A stretch of DNA of 57,357 nt from Ignavibacteriota bacterium (lineage in GTDB: Bacteria; Bacteroidota; Ignavibacteria; UBA10030), in contig PMZI01000078.1 in the NCBI GenBank assembly GCA_003170475.1, forward strand, positions 1-57,357, in the 5' to 3' direction. Each line of letters opens with the position of its first letter. The stretch's first letter is position 1. Below, piece by piece: positions 18,441 to 28,075 of this stretch. The notes below the pieces were generated by a model, which was given only the letters and a program-made list of their open reading frames with translations, had not been told where the DNA came from and ran no database searches. The position numbers and the translations under genes were made by a program.

Positions 18441-20330
18441 TTACGAAAACAACAGCGCCAGAAGTTGAAACATCTGAGAGTAATCCGGGACAATCAGGTC
18501 GGCTCCCGCTTCAATCAGCCGCGTACGCTTCGCAAGATTTAAACCGTATCTGCGCACCTCATCGCTGGCGACACCAACCGCGTATCCTCCCTTTTTGTGC
18601 GTTTCCCGGATCTCGACAGGCCCGTCGCCGAAGACAAGGATCTTGTCCCGTGTCTCGTCACCGATCTCAGTCAGAATCCTTTCAAGGAGCATCCGTTTCG
18701 CTTCATACGAGACGTCTCCGACTGCTCCATAGATCCTCTCGCCGAAGAGTTGCCGATATCCCAAAAGTCCTGCTTCGCGCTCAAGATCCTCGCGGTCGGT
18801 ACCGCTCGCCAAGTACAAGACCACTCCTTTGCGATAGAGATCGTTCAGGAGCTCGACGGCGTTCTTGATCGTGCAATCACGGACGTTTAATTCACCTCGC
18901 TCGAGTTTCCGCGTCCGACCGTTCACCATGGCAGACAATTCGTCATTGTATACCTTTTTGTAACCGAATTCATCCAGGACTTCGGTCTCGGGTACGCATT
19001 TAAATCTCCTGACCAGATTCACAAGCCCTTTCATCTGGGCAAGCGTCTGCATTCCCGTTGTCTTGTCAATGTAGTCCCGCACAGATGCGACGACGTGAGC
19101 ATGGAGCGCTTCGTCTGATTCCCGTTCAGCGGTACCAAGAATGGCCCGCACCATCATTGGTTCCATAATCGATTCCCATCCCTGGCGGAGGGTGGAAAGC
19201 GTCCCATCGTGATCAAAAATCACGTGGGTAAACGACCGGTGATGAGGAAGAGAACTGACGATCTCGATTTCGCTCTGAGGCTGATAAATGGCTTTTCGAT
19301 ATTGATGAGCCAGATCCGGCCTGTAGCGGCGGTCGGGATCGGCGCCGATCTTCAGGATTTCCTCGGCCGTGGCGGTTCCCGTCTGCATGAGCTTTTGAAC
19401 GGTCACACCGGCGACAAGACTTCCCACTTCCGCTGCCTGCAGCGGATCCGCACCAACAGCGAGCGCAGCGGCAATTCCTGCGAGCATGCTATCCCCGGCT
19501 CCGACCGGATCTACCGGCGAGAGAATCAGAAGGCCCGGCACTTCCTTGCACCCCGCCGCATCGCACACGAGGCATCCGTTTTCTCCACGCGTCAGGAAGA
19601 CGGGCTTCGCCCATCGCCGGAAAAGAGACGTGGCGAGTCCTTCGATCTCGGATGAATCCATCGCCGCGGAATCTCCCCCCATAAGTTTGGCGGCCTCCAA
19701 CATGTTGATCTTCCTGATGCACCCGGCATACTCGTCTGCAAAGTGCCTCGAATCGGCGATGAAGCACTTTTCGGGATGGCCAAGCACGAGAGCGCTGAGC
19801 GACGCCCTGAATTCTTTCGTGTGGATGCCGTGAAGGACTTGCTGGTTAATAATGATGAGATCCAGAGAAGGGAGTGCAGCCGTGAGCTGCTCCAGCAGCA
19901 TCGAGGCGGTGGACGCGTGAAGCTCGTTGAAATTGCCAAAGTCGAAGCGGTGTTGTTCCTGCTGGCGTTCATGCGGTTTCATATAAACATGCGATTCCCA
20001 TTGCTCGCGCTGTACCAAGAGTCCCGTTACGTCAACGCCGTTGGAGGAGAGGAGCTGACTCATTTCCCGTCCGAAGGGGTCCTCACCGATGACACCAAAC
20101 GCGCAGAGCGATCCTACCCCCATTGCATGCAGGTTATTGGCCACATTTCCGGCAGCGCCAAGTGAGTAACGCTGCGTGCGGACAGGACGCGTGGAGAGTC
20201 CTGTCTCGAGCGACGTTTCCGAAGCACCCGGATCGAGCAAGAGATAGACGTCAAGACAGAAATCGCCGAGGATGCCGATCCGACTGCTTTGGATCTTGGT
20301 CAGGAGGTTTTTCAGTTTGATGTGATGCAT
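18441..20330 (-). CDS. PfkB-family sugar kinase fused to HAD phosphatase
   Basis: The 629-residue protein has two complete domains. Residues about 15-335 are a PfkB/ribokinase-type kinase related to the HldE kinase half, with GAAGNVANNLHAMG (58-71) and the catalytic DPVGAGDSMLAG (274-285). Residues about 368-615 are a HAD phosphatase with nucleophile motif DHDGT (373-377), SGTD (509-512) and FGDGPVEI (567-574). An enzyme that both phosphorylates and dephosphorylates could reposition a phosphate on a sugar or run a two-step modification. It follows the sugar ABC permease genes by 34 bases, so its substrate is probably what that system imports. The HldE nucleotidyltransferase half is absent. 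Confidence 0.88.
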   Translation of the reverse strand: MHHIKLKNLLTKIQSSRIGILGDFCLDVYLLLDPGASETSLETGLSTRPVRTQRYSLGAAGNVANNLHAMGVGSLCAFGVIGEDPFGREMSQLLSSNGVDVTGLLVQREQWESHVYMKPHERQQEQHRFDFGNFNELHASTASMLLEQLTAALPSLDLIIINQQVLHGIHTKEFRASLSALVLGHPEKCFIADSRHFADEYAGCIRKINMLEAAKLMGGDSAAMDSSEIEGLATSLFRRWAKPVFLTRGENGCLVCDAAGCKEVPGLLILSPVDPVGAGDSMLAGIAAALAVGADPLQAAEVGSLVAGVTVQKLMQTGTATAEEILKIGADPDRRYRPDLAHQYRKAIYQPQSEIEIVSSLPHHRSFTHVIFDHDGTLSTLRQGWESIMEPMMVRAILGTAERESDEALHAHVVASVRDYIDKTTGMQTLAQMKGLVNLVRRFKCVPETEVLDEFGYKKVYNDELSAMVNGRTRKLERGELNVRDCTIKNAVELLNDLYRKGVVLYLASGTDREDLEREAGLLGYRQLFGERIYGAVGDVSYEAKRMLLERILTEIGDETRDKILVFGDGPVEIRETHKKGGYAVGVASDEVRRYGLNLAKRTRLIEAGADLIVPDYSQMFQLLALLFS

Positions 20331-20364: not shown

Positions 20365-21177
20365 CTATTTACTCGCCCCCGCTACCAAACCCTTGATGAA
20401 CGTCTTGCGCGTCAGCGTAAAAAGAATCAGTGGCGGGATGCTGAAGAGGATCGCTGCCGCTGCCATTTGATTCCAGACGTCGAGGTACTCACCCACAAAC
20501 AAACCAATGCCGACGGGAATTGTTCTCGTCGAATCCGAAGACGTAAGAATGAGGGCGAAAAAGAATTCATTCCAGGAACCAAGGAACGAGAAGAGCGCCG
20601 TTGCGCCAATTCCGGGGAGAGCCAACGGAAGAATGATCTTACGCAACGCCATCATTCTCGAGCAACCGTCAATCAGAGCCGCATCCTCGATCTCGCGAGG
20701 AATCGTCTGAAAGAAACCATACAAGAGCCAGATGACAAACGGGAGAAGCACCGCCGTATGGACCAGGATCAAACCCCAGTACGTGTCATACAACTCTGCC
20801 TTCTGCAGCAATTGAAACAACGGAATAATAACTGACGCGCCCGGAAGCATCTGGGAAAGAAGAAAGATCAGAAGGAACACCTGCTTTCCCGGAAAGGTAA
20901 ATCGTGAAAACGCGAATGCGGCCAGGCTCCCGAAGAGAAGCGTGAGCACCGTCGAAGAGCAGGCGACAATCAAACTGTTCAACGTGTATGTCAAAAAAGG
21001 AAGATAGAAGAACATGTCGACGTATGGTTTCAAGCTCATCGCGGAGCTGGTCCATTGCGGCGGATATTGATTCACTTCCGAAAGCGGTTTCATCGAGGTG
21101 GAGAGCGTCCAGAGAACGGGAAGCAGGACCAGGAGAGCCAGGACGATCATCACGATGGAGAGAAGCGTCTTCTTCAT
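20365..21177 (-). CDS. Carbohydrate ABC importer permease, MalG type
   Basis: The 270-residue protein has six membrane helices. It carries the permease EAA-type loop near 190 (EIEDAALIDGCSRMMALRKI), which contacts the ATPase, followed by PLALPGI. The N-terminus LPVLWTLSTSMKPLSEV is typical of CUT1-family MalG-like permeases. It overlaps the partner permease by 4 bases (ATGA), so the two are translationally coupled. No ATPase gene is found here; many CUT1 systems share an MsmK/UgpC-like ATPase encoded elsewhere. Confidence 0.93.
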   Translation of the reverse strand: MKKTLLSIVMIVLALLVLLPVLWTLSTSMKPLSEVNQYPPQWTSSAMSLKPYVDMFFYLPFLTYTLNSLIVACSSTVLTLLFGSLAAFAFSRFTFPGKQVFLLIFLLSQMLPGASVIIPLFQLLQKAELYDTYWGLILVHTAVLLPFVIWLLYGFFQTIPREIEDAALIDGCSRMMALRKIILPLALPGIGATALFSFLGSWNEFFFALILTSSDSTRTIPVGIGLFVGEYLDVWNQMAAAAILFSIPPLILFTLTRKTFIKGLVAGASK

Positions 21178-22043
21178 GTCGACTCCCCTCTCGCGAGCAC
21201 TTTCAAATAGAGATAGGAGAGTGTCGTGAGCAGCGCGAAGATGACAACGGAAAGAGCCGACCCTTTCCCGAGATCGAACTGCACGAAGGAAAACTCTCTG
21301 ACCAGGACGGGAAGGACCATGGAGGAGTTCATCGGACCTCCGCGCGTCATCACGAACACCATGTTGAAGTCGTTGAAGCTCCAGATGACCCCCAGAACGA
21401 GCATGACCGACGTCACTGTTTTCAAATTGGGCAGTGTGATATGAAAAAATCTCCTGACCATCGTCGCACCATCCACCGCTGCAGCTTCATATTGCTCCTG
21501 GGGAATTGATTGCAGTCCGGCGAGAAACATCACCATCGCAAACGGATAGAATTGCCAGATGCGGGCCAGCATAACGCAGATGAGGGCAGTCCCGGGATTG
21601 CCGAGCCACGTGGTTCCCGCTTTAACGATTCCGGCGGACGCCAGCCAGTAATTCACAACGCCAAAGTGATCGTTCAGGAGCCATTTCCACGCAAAGCCGG
21701 CCACAACAGGGGAAATGATCCAGGGGACTGTGTACAGGCAACCCATGACTGTAGTGATCTTCCCCAATTTGAGGTTCAGCAAGAGAGCGAAGCCGAGCCC
21801 CAGGATCAACGCCACCACTGTTCCCACTACCGCATACACGGAGGTGTTCCCGAAGGAACGCCAGAAGAGCGTGTCATGAAAGACATGCTTGTAGTTGCTG
21901 AACCCCGTCCATCCGCTTCTCCCCGTGATCATACTGACGTCGCTGAAACTGTTGATCAGATTCTGCACGAGTGGATAGACGAGCACGAACACAGTGAACA
22001 GAAGTGCCGGAACCAGCAGCAGGTATGGAGTGGCCTTCTTCAT
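21174..22043 (-). CDS. Carbohydrate ABC importer permease, MalF/UgpA type
   Basis: This 289-residue membrane protein has six predicted helices and the start LLLVPALLFTVFVLVYPL common to UgpA/LacF permeases. The EAA loop reads EQYEAAAVDGATMVRRFFHITLP, then LKTVTSVMLVLGVIWSFNDFN. It overlaps both neighbours by 4 bases, so binding protein, this permease and the second permease form one tightly coupled operon. CUT1 importers take up oligosaccharides, glycosides or glycerol phosphates; nothing here fixes the substrate. Confidence 0.93.
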   Translation of the reverse strand: MKKATPYLLLVPALLFTVFVLVYPLVQNLINSFSDVSMITGRSGWTGFSNYKHVFHDTLFWRSFGNTSVYAVVGTVVALILGLGFALLLNLKLGKITTVMGCLYTVPWIISPVVAGFAWKWLLNDHFGVVNYWLASAGIVKAGTTWLGNPGTALICVMLARIWQFYPFAMVMFLAGLQSIPQEQYEAAAVDGATMVRRFFHITLPNLKTVTSVMLVLGVIWSFNDFNMVFVMTRGGPMNSSMVLPVLVREFSFVQFDLGKGSALSVVIFALLTTLSYLYLKVLARGEST

Positions 22044-23323
22044 TTCTTCCCGTCGACGAGATCTTGAGCTTCCCTCGCAGCCTGATCGAGCGCGGCCTTC
22101 GGCGACAATTCTCCTACGATCGCCTTCTGGCAGTACGGCGTATAGATGTTACTCGCGATCGCAATCATCTGGGGATGCGGAGGCCAGGGCCGGGCATGAT
22201 TGAGCTCGTTGATGTACAGTGGGATGTCTTTTATGCTCTTGGCTTCGCGGCTATTCAGCGCGCTCTTGGTTGTCGCTGTAGCTCCGAGATCCTGTGTAAT
22301 CCAGAACATGTCCGCTTCCTCATTCCTGAGGTGTTTGAGAAGCTCCCAGGCTTCATTCAGATGTTTTGATCGGGCGTTGATCGAATACATGACCATGTCC
22401 TGCAGCGTCGGAGCAGTGTCATACTGTGCAATCATGTCATCGGGGACGGGCACAGGGACAACATACATGTCCTTGCCCGGATTCTTGTCGCCGACCATCC
22501 CCCTGAACCAGGGCCCTTCGATGCTCATGGCCGCCTTGTTCCCGCTGAACAAATCATTGACCTCGGAATGGGTATACGCGAGAAACCCGGGGGTAATCGA
22601 ATGATCCACTTGGTACATGTCGGCAATCAGTTTCAACGCAGCGACACCCATCGGGGAGTTGAACTCGATCTTCTTAAGGTCCTCCGACATGACATTGACG
22701 CCGGCTTTGAAGAAGAACGGAATCATGCGATAGGCAAACCCGCCCTTGTCTCCGCCCATGAGCACGAGGCCGAACTGATCGATGACCCCATCCCCGTCGG
22801 TATCTTTCGTAAGACGTTTCGCGGCCTCTCTGAACTGTGACCACGTTTTGGGCGGTGCAATTCCTTCCTTGTCAAACAGCTCCTTGTTGCAGCACAGGAC
22901 GAAGGCGATCGCGCTTGAGGGGAGACCGTAGTAATTGTCTTTGTACCGGGTGGACTCGAGAAGATGCGGAACGTACCATTGCTTGACTTGTTCGAAATCA
23001 GGAAACTTGTTGACCGGGTAATAGAATCCCGCCTCACCAAACTCGGCCGCAAAATTCGAGTGTGTGTTCATCACGTCGGGGCCGGCGCCTGCACTGAAAT
23101 CGGCATACAGGATCTCACGAATCATATTCCAGCTTTTGTCGCTTTGTTCGACTTTGATTCCCGGATGGGTTTTCTCAAAAGAGTAGACGCGTTGCCTGAG
23201 GAATTCAATCAGCTTCGGTCTTCCGCCGAAGTTCCAGTCGTGCAGCACAATGCCGTCACTCTTCTTGCCGCAGGAAAGGAGTGAGATGGAAAGAACGAGA
23301 GCGATGAATGTGGTTCGTTTCAT
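22040..23323 (-). CDS. Extracellular solute-binding lipoprotein of the sugar ABC importer
   Basis: The 427-residue lipoprotein has a signal ending LLSCG. The mature protein follows the family 1 solute-binding pattern: an N-terminal strand with DWNFGGRP, SFEKTHPGIKVEQ, YADFSAGAGPDVM, GLPSSAIAFVLCCNKELFDKEGI and WSQFREAAKRLT. AAGG stands 7 bases before the ATG. It is the first gene of the importer operon; the region just upstream (23374-23608) is filled with repeats, so the promoter should lie within 23324-23373 or inside them. Binding-site aromatics cannot be assigned by eye. Confidence 0.92.
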   Translation of the reverse strand: MKRTTFIALVLSISLLSCGKKSDGIVLHDWNFGGRPKLIEFLRQRVYSFEKTHPGIKVEQSDKSWNMIREILYADFSAGAGPDVMNTHSNFAAEFGEAGFYYPVNKFPDFEQVKQWYVPHLLESTRYKDNYYGLPSSAIAFVLCCNKELFDKEGIAPPKTWSQFREAAKRLTKDTDGDGVIDQFGLVLMGGDKGGFAYRMIPFFFKAGVNVMSEDLKKIEFNSPMGVAALKLIADMYQVDHSITPGFLAYTHSEVNDLFSGNKAAMSIEGPWFRGMVGDKNPGKDMYVVPVPVPDDMIAQYDTAPTLQDMVMYSINARSKHLNEAWELLKHLRNEEADMFWITQDLGATATTKSALNSREAKSIKDIPLYINELNHARPWPPHPQMIAIASNIYTPYCQKAIVGELSPKAALDQAAREAQDLVDGKK

Positions 23324-23638: not shown

Positions 23639-24736
23639 CTACGTTCCCAGCGCTTTTCTCATTGCCTTCACAAACGTGACGAAATTTTCCGGTCTGGTTC
23701 CCTGCAATACTCCATCGGCAGTTGAGAAAATGTGGGGATAGCCTCGGACATCGGAGACGATCTTCCCGACTTGCCTCTCAATCTCTGTCGGCGTTCCGTC
23801 CCGCAACAGGCGAAGATTTAGATTGCCCTTCGTGCAGATGCTCCGATCGATGTGCGACCTCGATTCGGCAAGGTCATTATCTCCTTCTGGCGGAGGAGCA
23901 ATCGTTTCGATCACGTCTGCACCAAGAGTATTAAACACGCCTTCTTTTATGAACTGGCTAGTAAACCCGCAGTTGTGGTACCAGAACAGTCCGCCGTGTT
24001 GGTGCGTCCACTCGGCGAACCGGCGGATATACGGGAGGTCCATCGTGGCGAACAGTTCGGGCGAGGTCATTTCCAGTCCATAGCTGGAATCACTCATGAA
24101 ATCAATGCCTTCCTTCATGGCAATGGACATGACGAACAATGATGCTTCATAGATCGCTTCCATGCTCCGCACGAAGACATCCTGCCAGTCATTCCATTGA
24201 TAGAAGATGTTGGTCGGATTGATCTGGGAGCCGAGCCAGGATGGATGTGGATGGCCGATGACGATGACTCCGTCCTCCCCCACTTTCTGACGCCACGTGC
24301 GAAAATAATTCCGGATCACCTGTTCCCGTTGAGCGACCTGTTCACAAACGGAAATCAACATTTCGTGATCATGAACACTTTCCACCGGGCAGGCCGCCTC
24401 ATCACTCCAGGGAATTTCCTTGCGCGGAGATTGCCAGGTCCACTCCCCTTTTGGCGTCACGATCGTACGAAAGGCAGTATCAGGCGTCGAGCGGGATTCG
24501 TCCGTGGACCAATTGAAAATCAATCCTGAGCATTCAGTCATGAACATGGGTTCGTACCCAAGCTCCTGCGACAAGCAAATTTCATTCCCGACGGGATCAT
24601 TGGTGACGGGCAGATGAAGGAACGCAAGAGTTTCGCGTATGACGTCCGGATGCGGGAGGAACGGGGAGACAACGGGACGTGACGTTGTTGGATTTCTGAC
24701 GTACGACAAAAAGCGTTGGCGAGGGGAAGTGTTCAT
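23639..24736 (-). CDS. URO-D/MtaA superfamily protein with zinc-type HxC...C motif
   Basis: The 365-residue protein is of the uroporphyrinogen decarboxylase superfamily, which also includes corrinoid methyltransferases (MtaA, MtbA, CmuA). It has a TIM-barrel length and conserved segments such as FWYHNCGFT near 251-259. His254, Cys256 and Cys301 could form the zinc site used by MtaA-type enzymes to bind a thiol acceptor. True HemE is unlikely: heme-gene context is absent. It lies 127 bases downstream of the GRE gene in the same direction, so a role in the same pathway is likely. No corrinoid-binding domain protein is encoded in the window. Confidence 0.75.
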   Translation of the reverse strand: MNTSPRQRFLSYVRNPTTSRPVVSPFLPHPDVIRETLAFLHLPVTNDPVGNEICLSQELGYEPMFMTECSGLIFNWSTDESRSTPDTAFRTIVTPKGEWTWQSPRKEIPWSDEAACPVESVHDHEMLISVCEQVAQREQVIRNYFRTWRQKVGEDGVIVIGHPHPSWLGSQINPTNIFYQWNDWQDVFVRSMEAIYEASLFVMSIAMKEGIDFMSDSSYGLEMTSPELFATMDLPYIRRFAEWTHQHGGLFWYHNCGFTSQFIKEGVFNTLGADVIETIAPPPEGDNDLAESRSHIDRSICTKGNLNLRLLRDGTPTEIERQVGKIVSDVRGYPHIFSTADGVLQGTRPENFVTFVKAMRKALGT

Positions 24737-24863: not shown

Positions 24864-27095
24864 TCATTCTTCAGCAATAATCCTATCCACCACAATTTGC
24901 CTCATTTCCGGTGACAGACTCGCAAAGTACGCACTGAAGCCGGTCACCCGGACGACCAAGTCGGGGTGCAGGGTCGGATCCTTCTGTGCTTCGAGTATGG
25001 CCTTCTTGTTCAGAATGTTCATGTTGATCTGCGTTCCGCCCATCTCAAAATGCGTCCGGATCAGAGCCACTACTTTTTCAATGTCCTCATCCGATTTTGA
25101 GAGGCCCGGATCGAGCTCGATCTGCATCGGCGCTGTGTTACCATATCCGGGCTGAACGGAAGCCACAGCAATTGCAAGCGCTGTTGGGGCAGCGTCCTTT
25201 CGGAATCCTGGATCCGGATTTGGGCCGTGTGAGATTGGACTTTTCGACAATCGACCGTTGGGCGTCGAATCCACATCTTTCCCCATCGCGATGTTTGCTG
25301 CCCAGGAAAAGATTCCGGGGATCATATTGAATCCATGCGGGGTCGGTTTTTCCTTGACGATTTTGGTGAACGTTTGTGCAACATTTACTCCGAACGTGTC
25401 GGCTCTTGAGCCACCGCTGCCGTACCGCGGGACAGCTTTCATCATACGACGCGTTCGCTCGCCGGCTTCTCCCTCCCAGTTCGTATCGAGGAAATGCATC
25501 AGCTCATCCCAGGTCATTCTCTTCTCACGCTCAACCCGCTGCTCGACCGCGGCAAATGAATCTGCGACAGTCGCCAATCCAGCGGCGTCAACGCAGAGGT
25601 TGTAGAACTCAACACCACCGTGCGAGGCATCGCGCCCTTTTTCAATCGGTCCGTAGCAGAGAAGGTCGAGGTGCAGTTCGGGGAATACCCGGTACATGTG
25701 GTCCATGTGGAAATCAAGGCTCTTCGCAATCGTCTCAACGCTTCTTCTAAGATGTTTCTCAAAACAACGCCAGAGGGCATCGACGGAGGGTTTGATGGAT
25801 CGATCGGACATCATGTCTTTCATCGCCACTTCGAACACGGCCGCCATGTTCACCTTCACGCAGTCGTTCACGGTGTATTCCCTTCCGGGAATAGCGCACC
25901 AGTGGCAGCCTGAGTACGCTCGTTGGCGCCCGAGCTCGATCGGAAGTCCATTGCGTGCGAAACCTTCGCTTGTGCGATCGACACCGAGGAATTTCGGTAT
26001 GCCAGTCCTGTCCTCGAAGAGTATCTCCACTCCCCGCCGGAGCAATTTTGGATCGACGTCTTTGCCGACGCTGACCCCGACATTTACGGGCACCTTGAGC
26101 CGGTGGGCGGCTTCCAGCACAAGAAACGATAGGGCGTTTGTCGTGTCTTTGCCCGATGCATCAGGTCCACCGAGTTGCGTATAGCTGGTGTCCATAATGA
26201 AATGGCAGGCGAGGTGGAAGATGGCTTCTTCGTCCGTCAGGATGCCGCGCTTCTTGTCTTCCTGATAGAATGGAAAGAGAAACTGGTCGACGCGTCCGAG
26301 CGAGCCTCCCATGTTGTACATCTTCCCTGCGAGTTGATAGTACAGCATCCACTGACATGCTTCGCGAAACGTGCGAGGGGGATGGTTGACGAGATGATCG
26401 TTCATGGAGGCCAACTCCGTCAGGTTTTGGCGCAATTGTGGATGCTCTTCGTGCTTCGCCATTTCGGCCGCAGCTGCCGCATGTCGAGCGATCCAGTTTT
26501 GTATCCCAAGCACCATATGTTCCAGACCGTCGTACAGCTCCTGTGCTTCCTCGTCGAGGTTGACCGTTCGATAGTGGTGGATATTGGCCAGAATCCCCCC
26601 CCACCCAAGCGTGAGGCCTATCGCTTCATCCTGGCAGAAATGCTGCACCGCGCCAATGCCGTGATGAAGTTTGTACTTTTCGTGATCTTCGTGGAGAGGA
26701 GAGAAATCGAAATCGGGGTTCCAGGCCGGTTGGCGATAGGCAGAGAAGTGCGCCATGTAGCCTCCAGCGAGCGAACTCATCGGATCGATATACGGTGGGT
26801 GCAGATCGATGAGTGTTCGGAAATTTTCGCCGCAATCCCGGGCGCCGAAGATCCCGCCGCTCGGATGGTTTGTCTTCGGCGTGAATTCTTTGAACATTGC
26901 ATCGACAATCAGCAATCCCGATCCGCTCACCACGCGCACTACTTTGCGAGACTCGGGAGGAGGAAGCATGATCGGCAGGTCATCCATGTCGAAGCAGCCG
27001 AGTTCCCGCCACTTTTCTTCCGTGTGGCGCATCTTCGTTGCCCGGAGCATGTCGATGCGTTCAGTGAATGTCAGTTCTTTCGATTCAGAGCCCAT
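24864..27095 (-). CDS. Glycyl radical enzyme of unassigned type (PFL superfamily)
   Basis: About 743 residues from ATG 27095 (GGGGAAGG upstream; ATG 27098 and TTG 27113 are alternatives). The C-terminus has the glycyl radical motif RVTGFSAYF with Gly719, 25 residues from the end. The active-site loop is SGCHWCAIPGRE (395-406), with Cys397 as the thiyl residue. Characterised dehydratases, lyases and decarboxylases (glycerol, propanediol, hydroxyproline, choline, arylacetate) usually read GCVE, and pyruvate formate-lyase has adjacent Cys-Cys; here His-Trp follow and a second Cys sits at 400. The substrate is therefore not predictable. The activase gene ends 41 bases upstream. It works only without oxygen. 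Confidence 0.9.
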   Translation of the reverse strand: MGSESKELTFTERIDMLRATKMRHTEEKWRELGCFDMDDLPIMLPPPESRKVVRVVSGSGLLIVDAMFKEFTPKTNHPSGGIFGARDCGENFRTLIDLHPPYIDPMSSLAGGYMAHFSAYRQPAWNPDFDFSPLHEDHEKYKLHHGIGAVQHFCQDEAIGLTLGWGGILANIHHYRTVNLDEEAQELYDGLEHMVLGIQNWIARHAAAAAEMAKHEEHPQLRQNLTELASMNDHLVNHPPRTFREACQWMLYYQLAGKMYNMGGSLGRVDQFLFPFYQEDKKRGILTDEEAIFHLACHFIMDTSYTQLGGPDASGKDTTNALSFLVLEAAHRLKVPVNVGVSVGKDVDPKLLRRGVEILFEDRTGIPKFLGVDRTSEGFARNGLPIELGRQRAYSGCHWCAIPGREYTVNDCVKVNMAAVFEVAMKDMMSDRSIKPSVDALWRCFEKHLRRSVETIAKSLDFHMDHMYRVFPELHLDLLCYGPIEKGRDASHGGVEFYNLCVDAAGLATVADSFAAVEQRVEREKRMTWDELMHFLDTNWEGEAGERTRRMMKAVPRYGSGGSRADTFGVNVAQTFTKIVKEKPTPHGFNMIPGIFSWAANIAMGKDVDSTPNGRLSKSPISHGPNPDPGFRKDAAPTALAIAVASVQPGYGNTAPMQIELDPGLSKSDEDIEKVVALIRTHFEMGGTQINMNILNKKAILEAQKDPTLHPDLVVRVTGFSAYFASLSPEMRQIVVDRIIAEE

Positions 27096-27136
27096 CATAC
27101 CTTCCCCACTCAAAAAGAAACATTATTGATCCCCCT

Positions 27137-28075
27137 CTATCGCAGCGACGCTTCAATACCGCAGCGACGTGCCGCGTTGAGGAGCGACGTCATCTTCTCC
27201 TTTGTCGGCGGCTCGATGTCATGTGCTTTGTACTCAAGCCCCAGGCTGGGATATTTTCCCGCGGCGAGTTTGTGAAACGCCAGCAACTCGTATCGGATCT
27301 CTCCGTTACCGTTCTGATGTGCGCTTGTGCGCAAAGTGATCAGTTCACGAACAAACGTGGCAATCTGGATAATTTCTTCTTCTGTGTCATTCACCGACGG
27401 AACGATCGGTGTACGAACAATGATTGTTTTTCCGCTCGATGCCAGTCGGCGTGCATTCGAGAGAATGCGATCATTCGGCTGACCCGTTGCACGCTGATGT
27501 TTGCTCTCATCGAGATGTTTGATGTCCATCATAATCAGGTCGGTGAATGGGAGCAATGCCTCGAGAGACGCCCAGGGAACTTCGCCGCACGTCTCGATGG
27601 CGGTGTGCAAGCGGTGAACTTTACACGCTTCGAGAATCTCCCGTGCAAAATCCTTGCTCAATGCGGGCTCGCCGCCCGAGAGGGTGACGCCGCCACCGGA
27701 AGATTCGTAAAACGCTTTATCGGATAAGACTTCATCCATGACCTGGGCCACCGTCATCGCGCGTCCTTCCATTTGCAGGGCGCGGGAGAAGCACGTTTCC
27801 ACACAGAGTCCGCTTAACTCACAATTTTCGCGCAGGAAGGCGTGTGTACCGTCGTGCATTTCATGGGCATGGTTGGGACACGAAAGAACACATTGGCCGC
27901 AGGCGATACAGCGTTCGGGAAAGTAGCGAAGCTCCGGTTCCGGGTGCTGCCCTTCCGGATTGTGGCACCAGAAGCAGCGCATGGAGCATCCTTTGAGGAA
28001 CACAGTTGTGCGGATGCCCGGACCATCGTGCAGGGAGAACCGTTGTATGTTGAAGACGACGTCAGCAGTGTTCAT
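27137..28075 (-). CDS. Radical-SAM activating enzyme for the glycyl radical enzyme
   Basis: This 312-residue protein begins with the GRE-activase pattern: FNIQRFSLHDGPGIRTTVF, then the radical-SAM cluster motif CSMRCFWC (CxxxCxxC) near 30-37. An inserted ferredoxin-like section (about 50-100) contains CIACGQCVLSC and a further Cys group (CELSGLCVETC), which would hold two extra 4Fe-4S clusters, as in activases of choline- and glycerol-type GREs. GGGVTLSGGEPALS follows near 127. It generates the radical on Gly719 of its partner. It is first in the activase-GRE-URO-D unit; a dyad lies just upstream. Confidence 0.95.
   Translation of the reverse strand: MNTADVVFNIQRFSLHDGPGIRTTVFLKGCSMRCFWCHNPEGQHPEPELRYFPERCIACGQCVLSCPNHAHEMHDGTHAFLRENCELSGLCVETCFSRALQMEGRAMTVAQVMDEVLSDKAFYESSGGGVTLSGGEPALSKDFAREILEACKVHRLHTAIETCGEVPWASLEALLPFTDLIMMDIKHLDESKHQRATGQPNDRILSNARRLASSGKTIIVRTPIVPSVNDTEEEIIQIATFVRELITLRTSAHQNGNGEIRYELLAFHKLAAGKYPSLGLEYKAHDIEPPTKEKMTSLLNAARRCGIEASLR

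Follow-up and report, generated by a model that had tools for sequence, protein, structure and literature searches.

How does a glycyl radical enzyme (GRE) work when the glutamate of its cysteine loop is replaced by tryptophan? The question is raised by a gene of an Ignavibacteriota bacterium (contig PMZI01000078.1), located within a stretch of 57,357 nucleotides which was analysed as a whole and is referred to here as the window. The protein carries the Cys loop SGCHWCAIPGREY and the C-terminal sequence RVTGFSAYF, and the reading frame, Cys397, Trp399, Cys400 and Gly719, all named in a preliminary description of this DNA, are confirmed in the translation of the minus strand. That description also proposed a reaction type not covered by known GREs, and the reaction may indeed be new. 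The features of the locus are listed in Table 1; an in-frame TTG at 27113 is an alternative start of the GRE which would add six residues.

Table 1. Position and assignment of the GRE, its predicted functional sites and the neighbouring genes in the window (codon places counted from the ATG at 27095).
Feature	Position	Strand	Basis
GRE of the GC[H/N]W clade, 743 aa	24864..27095	minus	ORF, ATG at 27095; PF02901 297.7 bits, PF01228 51.8 bits
Cys loop GCHWCAIPGR of the GRE	25882..25910	minus	counted from ATG
Codon of Cys397	25905-25907	minus	counted from ATG
Codon of Trp399	25899-25901	minus	counted from ATG
Codon of Cys400	25896-25898	minus	counted from ATG
Codon of Gly719, glycyl radical site (RVTGFSAYF)	24939..24941	minus	PF01228 match 637-724; counted from ATG
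Radical SAM activase, 312 aa, CX3CX2C and ferredoxin-type 4Fe-4S motifs	27137..28075	minus	TIGR02494 349.8 bits, cutoff 174.35
URO-D superfamily protein (MtaA/CmuA-like), recurrent partner in the GCHWC subclade	23639..24736	minus	profile matches
ABC importer solute-binding protein (SBP_bac_1, sugar type)	22040..23323	minus	profile matches
ABC permease, nearest models UgpA, GlcT, MalF, all below cutoff	21174..22043	minus	profile matches
ABC permease, nearest models GlcU, MalG, all below cutoff	20365..21177	minus	profile matches
PfkB-family sugar kinase (heptose-7-phosphate-kinase-like) fused to HAD hydrolase	18441..20330	minus	profile matches

By sequence and fold the window protein is a GRE, an oxygen-sensitive kind of radical enzyme, with the radical predicted on Gly719. 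The PF01228 match lies well above the cutoff of 22.2 bits and covers the C-terminal RVxGF/Y motif, and the activase, 41 bases upstream on the same strand, matches its model with a score that bears out the adjacent dedicated activase described earlier, a cognate activase being a feature of GREs. Six pairwise comparisons of four congeneric copies gave dN/dS values of 0.04-0.06, at dS values of 1.2-1.7 which are near saturation, and the gene is under purifying selection. The Cys-loop pattern has one match in the window and was found in none of 100 shuffles; conservation and dN/dS together rule out that the loop belongs to a chance or degenerate ORF. Selenocysteine at the loop was likewise rejected: in-frame stops had been reported for some copies, and tblastn alignments of the fetched loci located one only in L149, at aligned residue 165, away from the loop. 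A second GRE of the same genome (L137, contig C27) appears split, the interruption consisting of N letters, i.e. an assembly gap.

In order to place the protein, a family set of 57 proteins of at least 600 aa was taken from 58 cluster members. The member removed, L213_16, is another GRE with the loop TCVEI (Thr before Cys); it belongs to a second activase-GRE pair (L213 16738-19832), whose contig also carries a clade member a few kb away. Shorter pieces (e.g. L125, L133) and copies lost in greedy ORF calling (L192) are outside the set, and contig ends truncate several of the 57. The comparison set of 64 GREs includes PflB, PflD and YbiW of E. coli, annotated HypD and similar proteins, a pdu-linked GRE, GREs of the same genomes, and three CutC and three hydroxyphenylacetate decarboxylases scoring above their NCBIfam cutoffs; enzymes of the benzylsuccinate type were compared by profile and fold search only, the tree being made without them. 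The 57 family members and the 64 other GREs were split by one branch (SH-aLRT 100, 121 rows). In a mixture-model tree of 48 rows, hand-chosen as 24 of the 57 and 24 of the 64 with most long-branched rows omitted, the clade had a support of 100/100 and a stem of 1.81 changes per column. PflD, YbiW, PflB, HypD, CutC and hydroxyphenylacetate decarboxylase are all outside the clade in the trees.

The profiles agree with the expectation that the protein stands apart from characterised GREs. Twelve NCBIfam models match it and all of them score below their own cutoffs; the best equivalog reaches 231.1 bits against a cutoff of 1000, so that none of CutC, HypD, HpsG/HpfG, IAD and HPAD is assigned, the general PFL2-3 subfamily model 267 bits against 678.2, and TIGR01255 (pyruvate formate-lyase) 88.1 bits against 994.2. 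Searching the solved structures with the single sequence gave 198.3 bits at best (6lon), and with a 25-row family profile the top match was E. coli PflD (8yjo, 296 bits); the same profile scored 138.7 and 154.5 bits with benzylsuccinate and alkylsuccinate synthase structures, about half of the PflD score. These synthases have small accessory subunits encoded next to the catalytic subunit, and no such genes flank the window GRE, where the gaps are just 41 bases to the activase and 127 bases to the UroD-like gene. The AlphaFold model of the GRE has a pLDDT of 85.9 and a pTM of 0.88, with a mean pLDDT of 69 and 52 for residues 391-410, which form the loop. Best Foldseek matches of the model are 1,2-propanediol dehydratase and PflD (TM about 0.77), with 16-23% identity among the best 50 matches listed.

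Within the clade the two radical sites are kept and the Cys loop is changed. Cys397, the predicted catalytic cysteine, is present in 57/57 family members and aligns with a Cys in 64/64 other GREs, and a misread alignment is thereby dismissed; Gly719 is found in 56/57, the remaining protein being truncated before the site, and in 64/64 others. The clade motif is GC[H/N]W...PGxE, and the loops of the 57 members read GCHWC (26), GCNWM (14), GCHWM (7), GCNWC (4), GCNWT (3), GCHWS (1), GCHWT (1) and GCHWL (1). The preliminary description was right that the Glu of the CXE motif of GRE eliminases is replaced by Trp, the window protein having C-H-W: Trp399 is found in 57/57 family members versus 1/64 others, in which the column is Glu in 56/64. 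It had also stressed the second Cys at +3, and this did not hold, since residue 400 is Cys in 30 members only and otherwise Met (21), Thr (4), Ser (1) or Leu (1); Cys400 is therefore ruled out as a key feature of the class.

Several other residues set the family apart. Arg392 is present in 57/57 family members and 0/64 others, His623 in 56/57 and 2/64, and Asp411 in 57/57 and 4/64, the four including PflD and the pdu-linked GRE. Columns which are nearly universal in GREs are also altered: Asn691 occurs in 55/55 family members and 1/64 others (Gln in 62/64), Asn613 in 57/57 and 5/64 (Asp in 56/64), and Gln732 is replaced by Arg; with these changes the chemistry may differ more than assumed. Less specific are His152 (57/57; 49/64 others, including PflD, YbiW and HypD) and Glu406 (57/57; 23/64), the latter perhaps structural in role. 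In total, 32 positions have a residue that nearly all family members share and few other GREs possess; some of these positions are opposite gaps.

The loop was earlier called non-standard. This stands as far as the lost Glu and the separate clade are concerned; the protein is no orphan, the clade having 57 members, nor is the clade alone in having lost the CXE Glu, which 8/64 other GREs lack as well. These are three GCVV proteins near CutC, one protein each with Gln, Gly, Ala (one of the three hydroxyphenylacetate decarboxylases above the NCBIfam cutoff) and Trp (L247), and PflB. The GCVV proteins are CutC-like GREs with GCVV in place of GCVE, distinct from the clade (L255 5305-7674, on a plasmid of Peptoclostridium acidaminophilum, L265 and L266). 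L247, from a Clostridia genome (G358:C45), has Trp two residues after the Cys (HGCNWVD) on an otherwise canonical background with Tyr392 and Gln691; it was placed beside the clade in a quick tree and away from it in a careful one, was kept outside the family and may have lost the CXE Glu independently. The GC[H/N]W clade is thus deep, real and widespread, has a rebuilt Cys loop, and is apparently uncharacterised, enzymes of the benzylsuccinate type having entered the comparison by profile and fold; no description of it was found in the titles and opening parts of abstracts of the open-licence PMC papers listed.

Comparison to known systems shows partial likeness to several. PflD and YbiW have the same fold, a His at column 152 and, according to the PDB titles, sugar-type ligands (1,5-anhydromannitol-6-phosphate in streptococcal PflD and 1,5-anhydroglucitol-6-phosphate in YbiW), and PflD shares in addition the Asp at column 411 and PGRxY after the loop. 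Both, however, keep the CXE Glu (GCVE, GCIE), and E. coli pflD adjoins PTS genes whereas the window GRE lies near an ABC importer. The B12-independent glycerol and 1,2-propanediol dehydratases are among the best fold matches, and the pdu-linked GRE shares His152 and Asp411, but the CXE Glu is present (GCVE in the pdu-linked GRE) and identity is about 20%. The Gly and Cys sites are shared with HypD, and an annotated HypD has at column 152 the His of its GPGHTV sequence; Glu436 of HypD, essential according to PMC7077986, is Trp here, and the HypD model gives 207.2 bits against a cutoff of 1100. The aminoacyl radical enzymes (PMC11528403) are likewise noncanonical relatives of GRE eliminases with no function assigned; they replace the Gly, whereas the clade keeps Gly719 and alters the Cys loop.

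The family is widespread. Within its own phylum the only match at E<=1e-60 among 296 sampled genomes is the genome of the window itself, and within the genus 4/6 genomes carry the GRE. A search of one genome per species (84,980 species) with a looser loop pattern, GCxWCxxPGRx[YF], at the DNA level gave 83 stretches, of which 26 encode relatives (tblastn, 1e-3) and 57 do not. The 26 relatives have 37-91% identity, two being congeners of the window organism, and all but one, for which there was no title, come by title from Ignavibacteriae and other Bacteroidetes/Bacteroidota, Opitutaceae, KSB1, Anaerolineae/Thermoflexales, Latescibacterota, Actinobacteria, Planctomycetota, Armatimonadetes and Clostridia. 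In 24 carrier genomes the family members show 42-78% identity, versus at most 31% for other GREs. At E<=1e-120 the family profile detected carriers in 28/391 genomes from the class of a Clostridiales record (including one already known) and in 15/288 from the phylum of an Opitutaceae record (including at least two already known), so that the pathway is unlikely to be rare. One carrier, Flammeovirga kamogawensis, is cultured and has its copy on plasmid p1 (44.6% identity, loop GCNWM). Neither a protein scan nor a pattern scan of IMG/VR gave a viral relative, and 0/7 viral stretches with the stricter pattern encode one.

In the window the GRE is followed on the same strand by the genes for the URO-D protein, the solute-binding protein, the two permeases and the PfkB-HAD fusion. 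The order activase, GRE, UroD-like protein, solute-binding protein, permeases and kinase-HAD is found in much of the GCHWC subclade. Neighbours were counted by mechanical ORF calls and with profiles built from these same neighbourhoods, one GRE per locus, the counts being lower bounds at contig ends. Within 8 kb of the GRE, Gfo/Idh/MocA dehydrogenases were found at 23 of the 57 loci, permeases at 20, UroD-like proteins at 19, solute-binding proteins at 17, kinase-HAD proteins at 8 and mannose-6-phosphate-isomerase-like (PMI-like) proteins at 6; an activase was found at 46, some contigs being short. At least one sugar-type match (importer, sugar dehydrogenase, isomerase or kinase) lies within this distance at 42/57 loci, as detected by these same neighbourhood-derived profiles. 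Such matches thin out with distance, from 84/299 ORFs below 3 kb to 34/160 at 3-6 kb, 6/129 at 6-10 kb and 0/17 beyond. Among the 15 loci without a match, L210 and Flammeovirga have glycoside hydrolases.

In the GC[H/N]WM subclade, Gfo/Idh/MocA dehydrogenases are frequently found in tandem (up to five), with xylose-isomerase-like and PMI-like proteins at some loci. In raw counts, which are confounded by phylogeny, a UroD-like neighbour occurs with 19/30 GREs having Cys400 and 0/27 lacking it; a MocA neighbour, again in raw counts uncorrected for phylogeny, occurs with 18/21 GREs having Met and 5/30 having Cys. At four loci of the Clostridia sample (L201, L204, L205, L208) at least four Gfo/Idh/MocA-type dehydrogenase genes are beside the GRE. 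The sole GCHWL copy of the 57 adjoins a LarA-like protein (L209 7223-8533; lactate racemase N-terminal, 36.8 bits). None of 10 neighbouring dehydrogenases and isomerases tested reached an NCBIfam cutoff, and for one dehydrogenase the closest solved structure is DgpA, over the first half only. Pfam typing of 90 hand-picked neighbours showed many to be unrelated housekeeping proteins (RNase HII, threonine synthase, NAD synthase, Mg-chelatase-type ATPase). Glycoside hydrolases up to about 6 kb from a GRE include GH2, GH28, GH123, GH130, GH116, GH38, GH65, GH5 and GH10, with weak matches to GH42 and GH106. In Flammeovirga a GH47 gene follows the GRE by 0.5 kb and a GH92 gene is found at a distance of 18 kb; on the side before the GRE, past one opposite-strand gene, SusCD, a sulfatase and a GH130 gene are located 6-18 kb from it. 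Mannose-type enzymes (GH38, GH47, GH92, GH130, PMI-like) are recurrent, though absent at some loci.

As sugar-type genes lie near 42/57 loci and become fewer with distance, the neighbourhoods point to carbohydrate substrates, and the clade probably acts on carbohydrates. Against this counts that genes for sugar importers and for MocA dehydrogenases are common ones and that the control by distance was drawn from the carrier neighbourhoods themselves. For the window protein we tentatively favour, at somewhat less than an even chance, a role in carbohydrate catabolism as a radical lyase whose acid-base system is rebuilt and whose substrate is an unphosphorylated sugar, glycoside or cyclitol. The ABC importer would take up the sugar, glycoside or cyclitol, and the activase would generate the radical on Gly719, from where it would pass to Cys397. 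We infer that the Cys397 thiyl radical would then abstract a hydrogen from a hydroxyl-bearing carbon. The further course is guesswork: the substrate radical might be resolved by C-O elimination or by opening of the ring, in the manner of diol dehydratases and of the anhydrosugar enzymes PflD and YbiW. Products would be handled by the UroD-like and kinase/phosphatase partners in the GCHWC subclade and by sugar dehydrogenases in the gut subclade.

GRE eliminases share a conserved CXE motif, whose Glu is commonly regarded as the base in other members; in HypD the variants E436Q and H160Q are inactive, and His160 is 2.5 A from Glu436 (all from PMC7077986). Because a residue essential in HypD is absent here, an elimination mechanism must be rebuilt, and since the CXE Glu is Trp, proton transfer in an elimination would go through other invariant residues. 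The acid-base work might, at a guess, have moved to His152, Asp411 or Glu406; judged from residue conservation, Asp411 would be the first candidate for proton transfer if the reaction is an elimination. Trp399 would shape the pocket, and Arg392 and Glu406 may pair and so hold the loop.

Other reactions were weighed. That the CXE Glu is missing recalls pyruvate formate-lyase, which has no Glu two residues past the aligned Cys (ACCVSP in E. coli PflB), and an enzyme that breaks or makes C-C bonds, with Cys397 and Cys400 for its cysteine pair, could be imagined. It is unlikely: the pair of pyruvate formate-lyase is adjacent, the second Cys at +3 is not conserved here (Met, Thr, Ser or Leu in 27/57), and pyruvate formate-lyase clusters elsewhere, PflB giving the lowest family-profile score of all 64 (128 bits, versus 375 for PflD). 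An enzyme already known, such as an anhydrosugar-phosphate lyase, whose loop has merely drifted would explain why PflD is the top profile match and is in line with the loss of Glu in a few other GREs, but the low identity in the fold search, the support and stem length of the clade and the 32 near-fixed positions rare in others, some facing gaps, make it very improbable.

The UroD-like neighbours, which belong in the window to the MtaA/CmuA superfamily and are all 19 found beside GREs with Cys400, could instead indicate a radical enzyme for methylated sugars or cyclitols, with release of methanol or a UroD-like methyltransferase as partner. We doubt this, as 38/57 loci have no UroD match, the association with Cys400 is confounded by phylogeny as said above, and none of the nine window proteins typed was recognised as a corrinoid protein; moreover the window UroD-like protein has HNC but carries STAD at the place usual for a further Cys, and its NCBIfam scores are far under the cutoff. 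Lastly, a radical epimerase or redox isomerase of a keto-sugar would need no eliminating base, which fits the lost Glu, and the gut subclade is flanked by tandem sugar dehydrogenases and xylose-isomerase-like proteins. Position 400, however, offers no conserved second hydrogen donor, and we know of no precedent among GREs, so that this too has little probability.

Returning to the radical lyase of carbohydrate catabolism, a large clade in which Trp is fixed, the radical sites are kept and sugar genes are mostly near is a target for new radical carbohydrate chemistry, and its conserved operons supply partner enzymes which can be tested. With slightly more reserve than for the window protein itself, we suggest that the GC[H/N]W clade could be a further mechanistic class of GREs, beside the CXE eliminases and decarboxylases and the non-CXE C-C enzymes. 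Its members would need no CXE base to cleave, ring-open or rearrange unphosphorylated sugars, glycosides or cyclitols by radical chemistry, and may in this way open a common anaerobic route of sugar catabolism to bacteria from many phyla in soil, sediment and gut.
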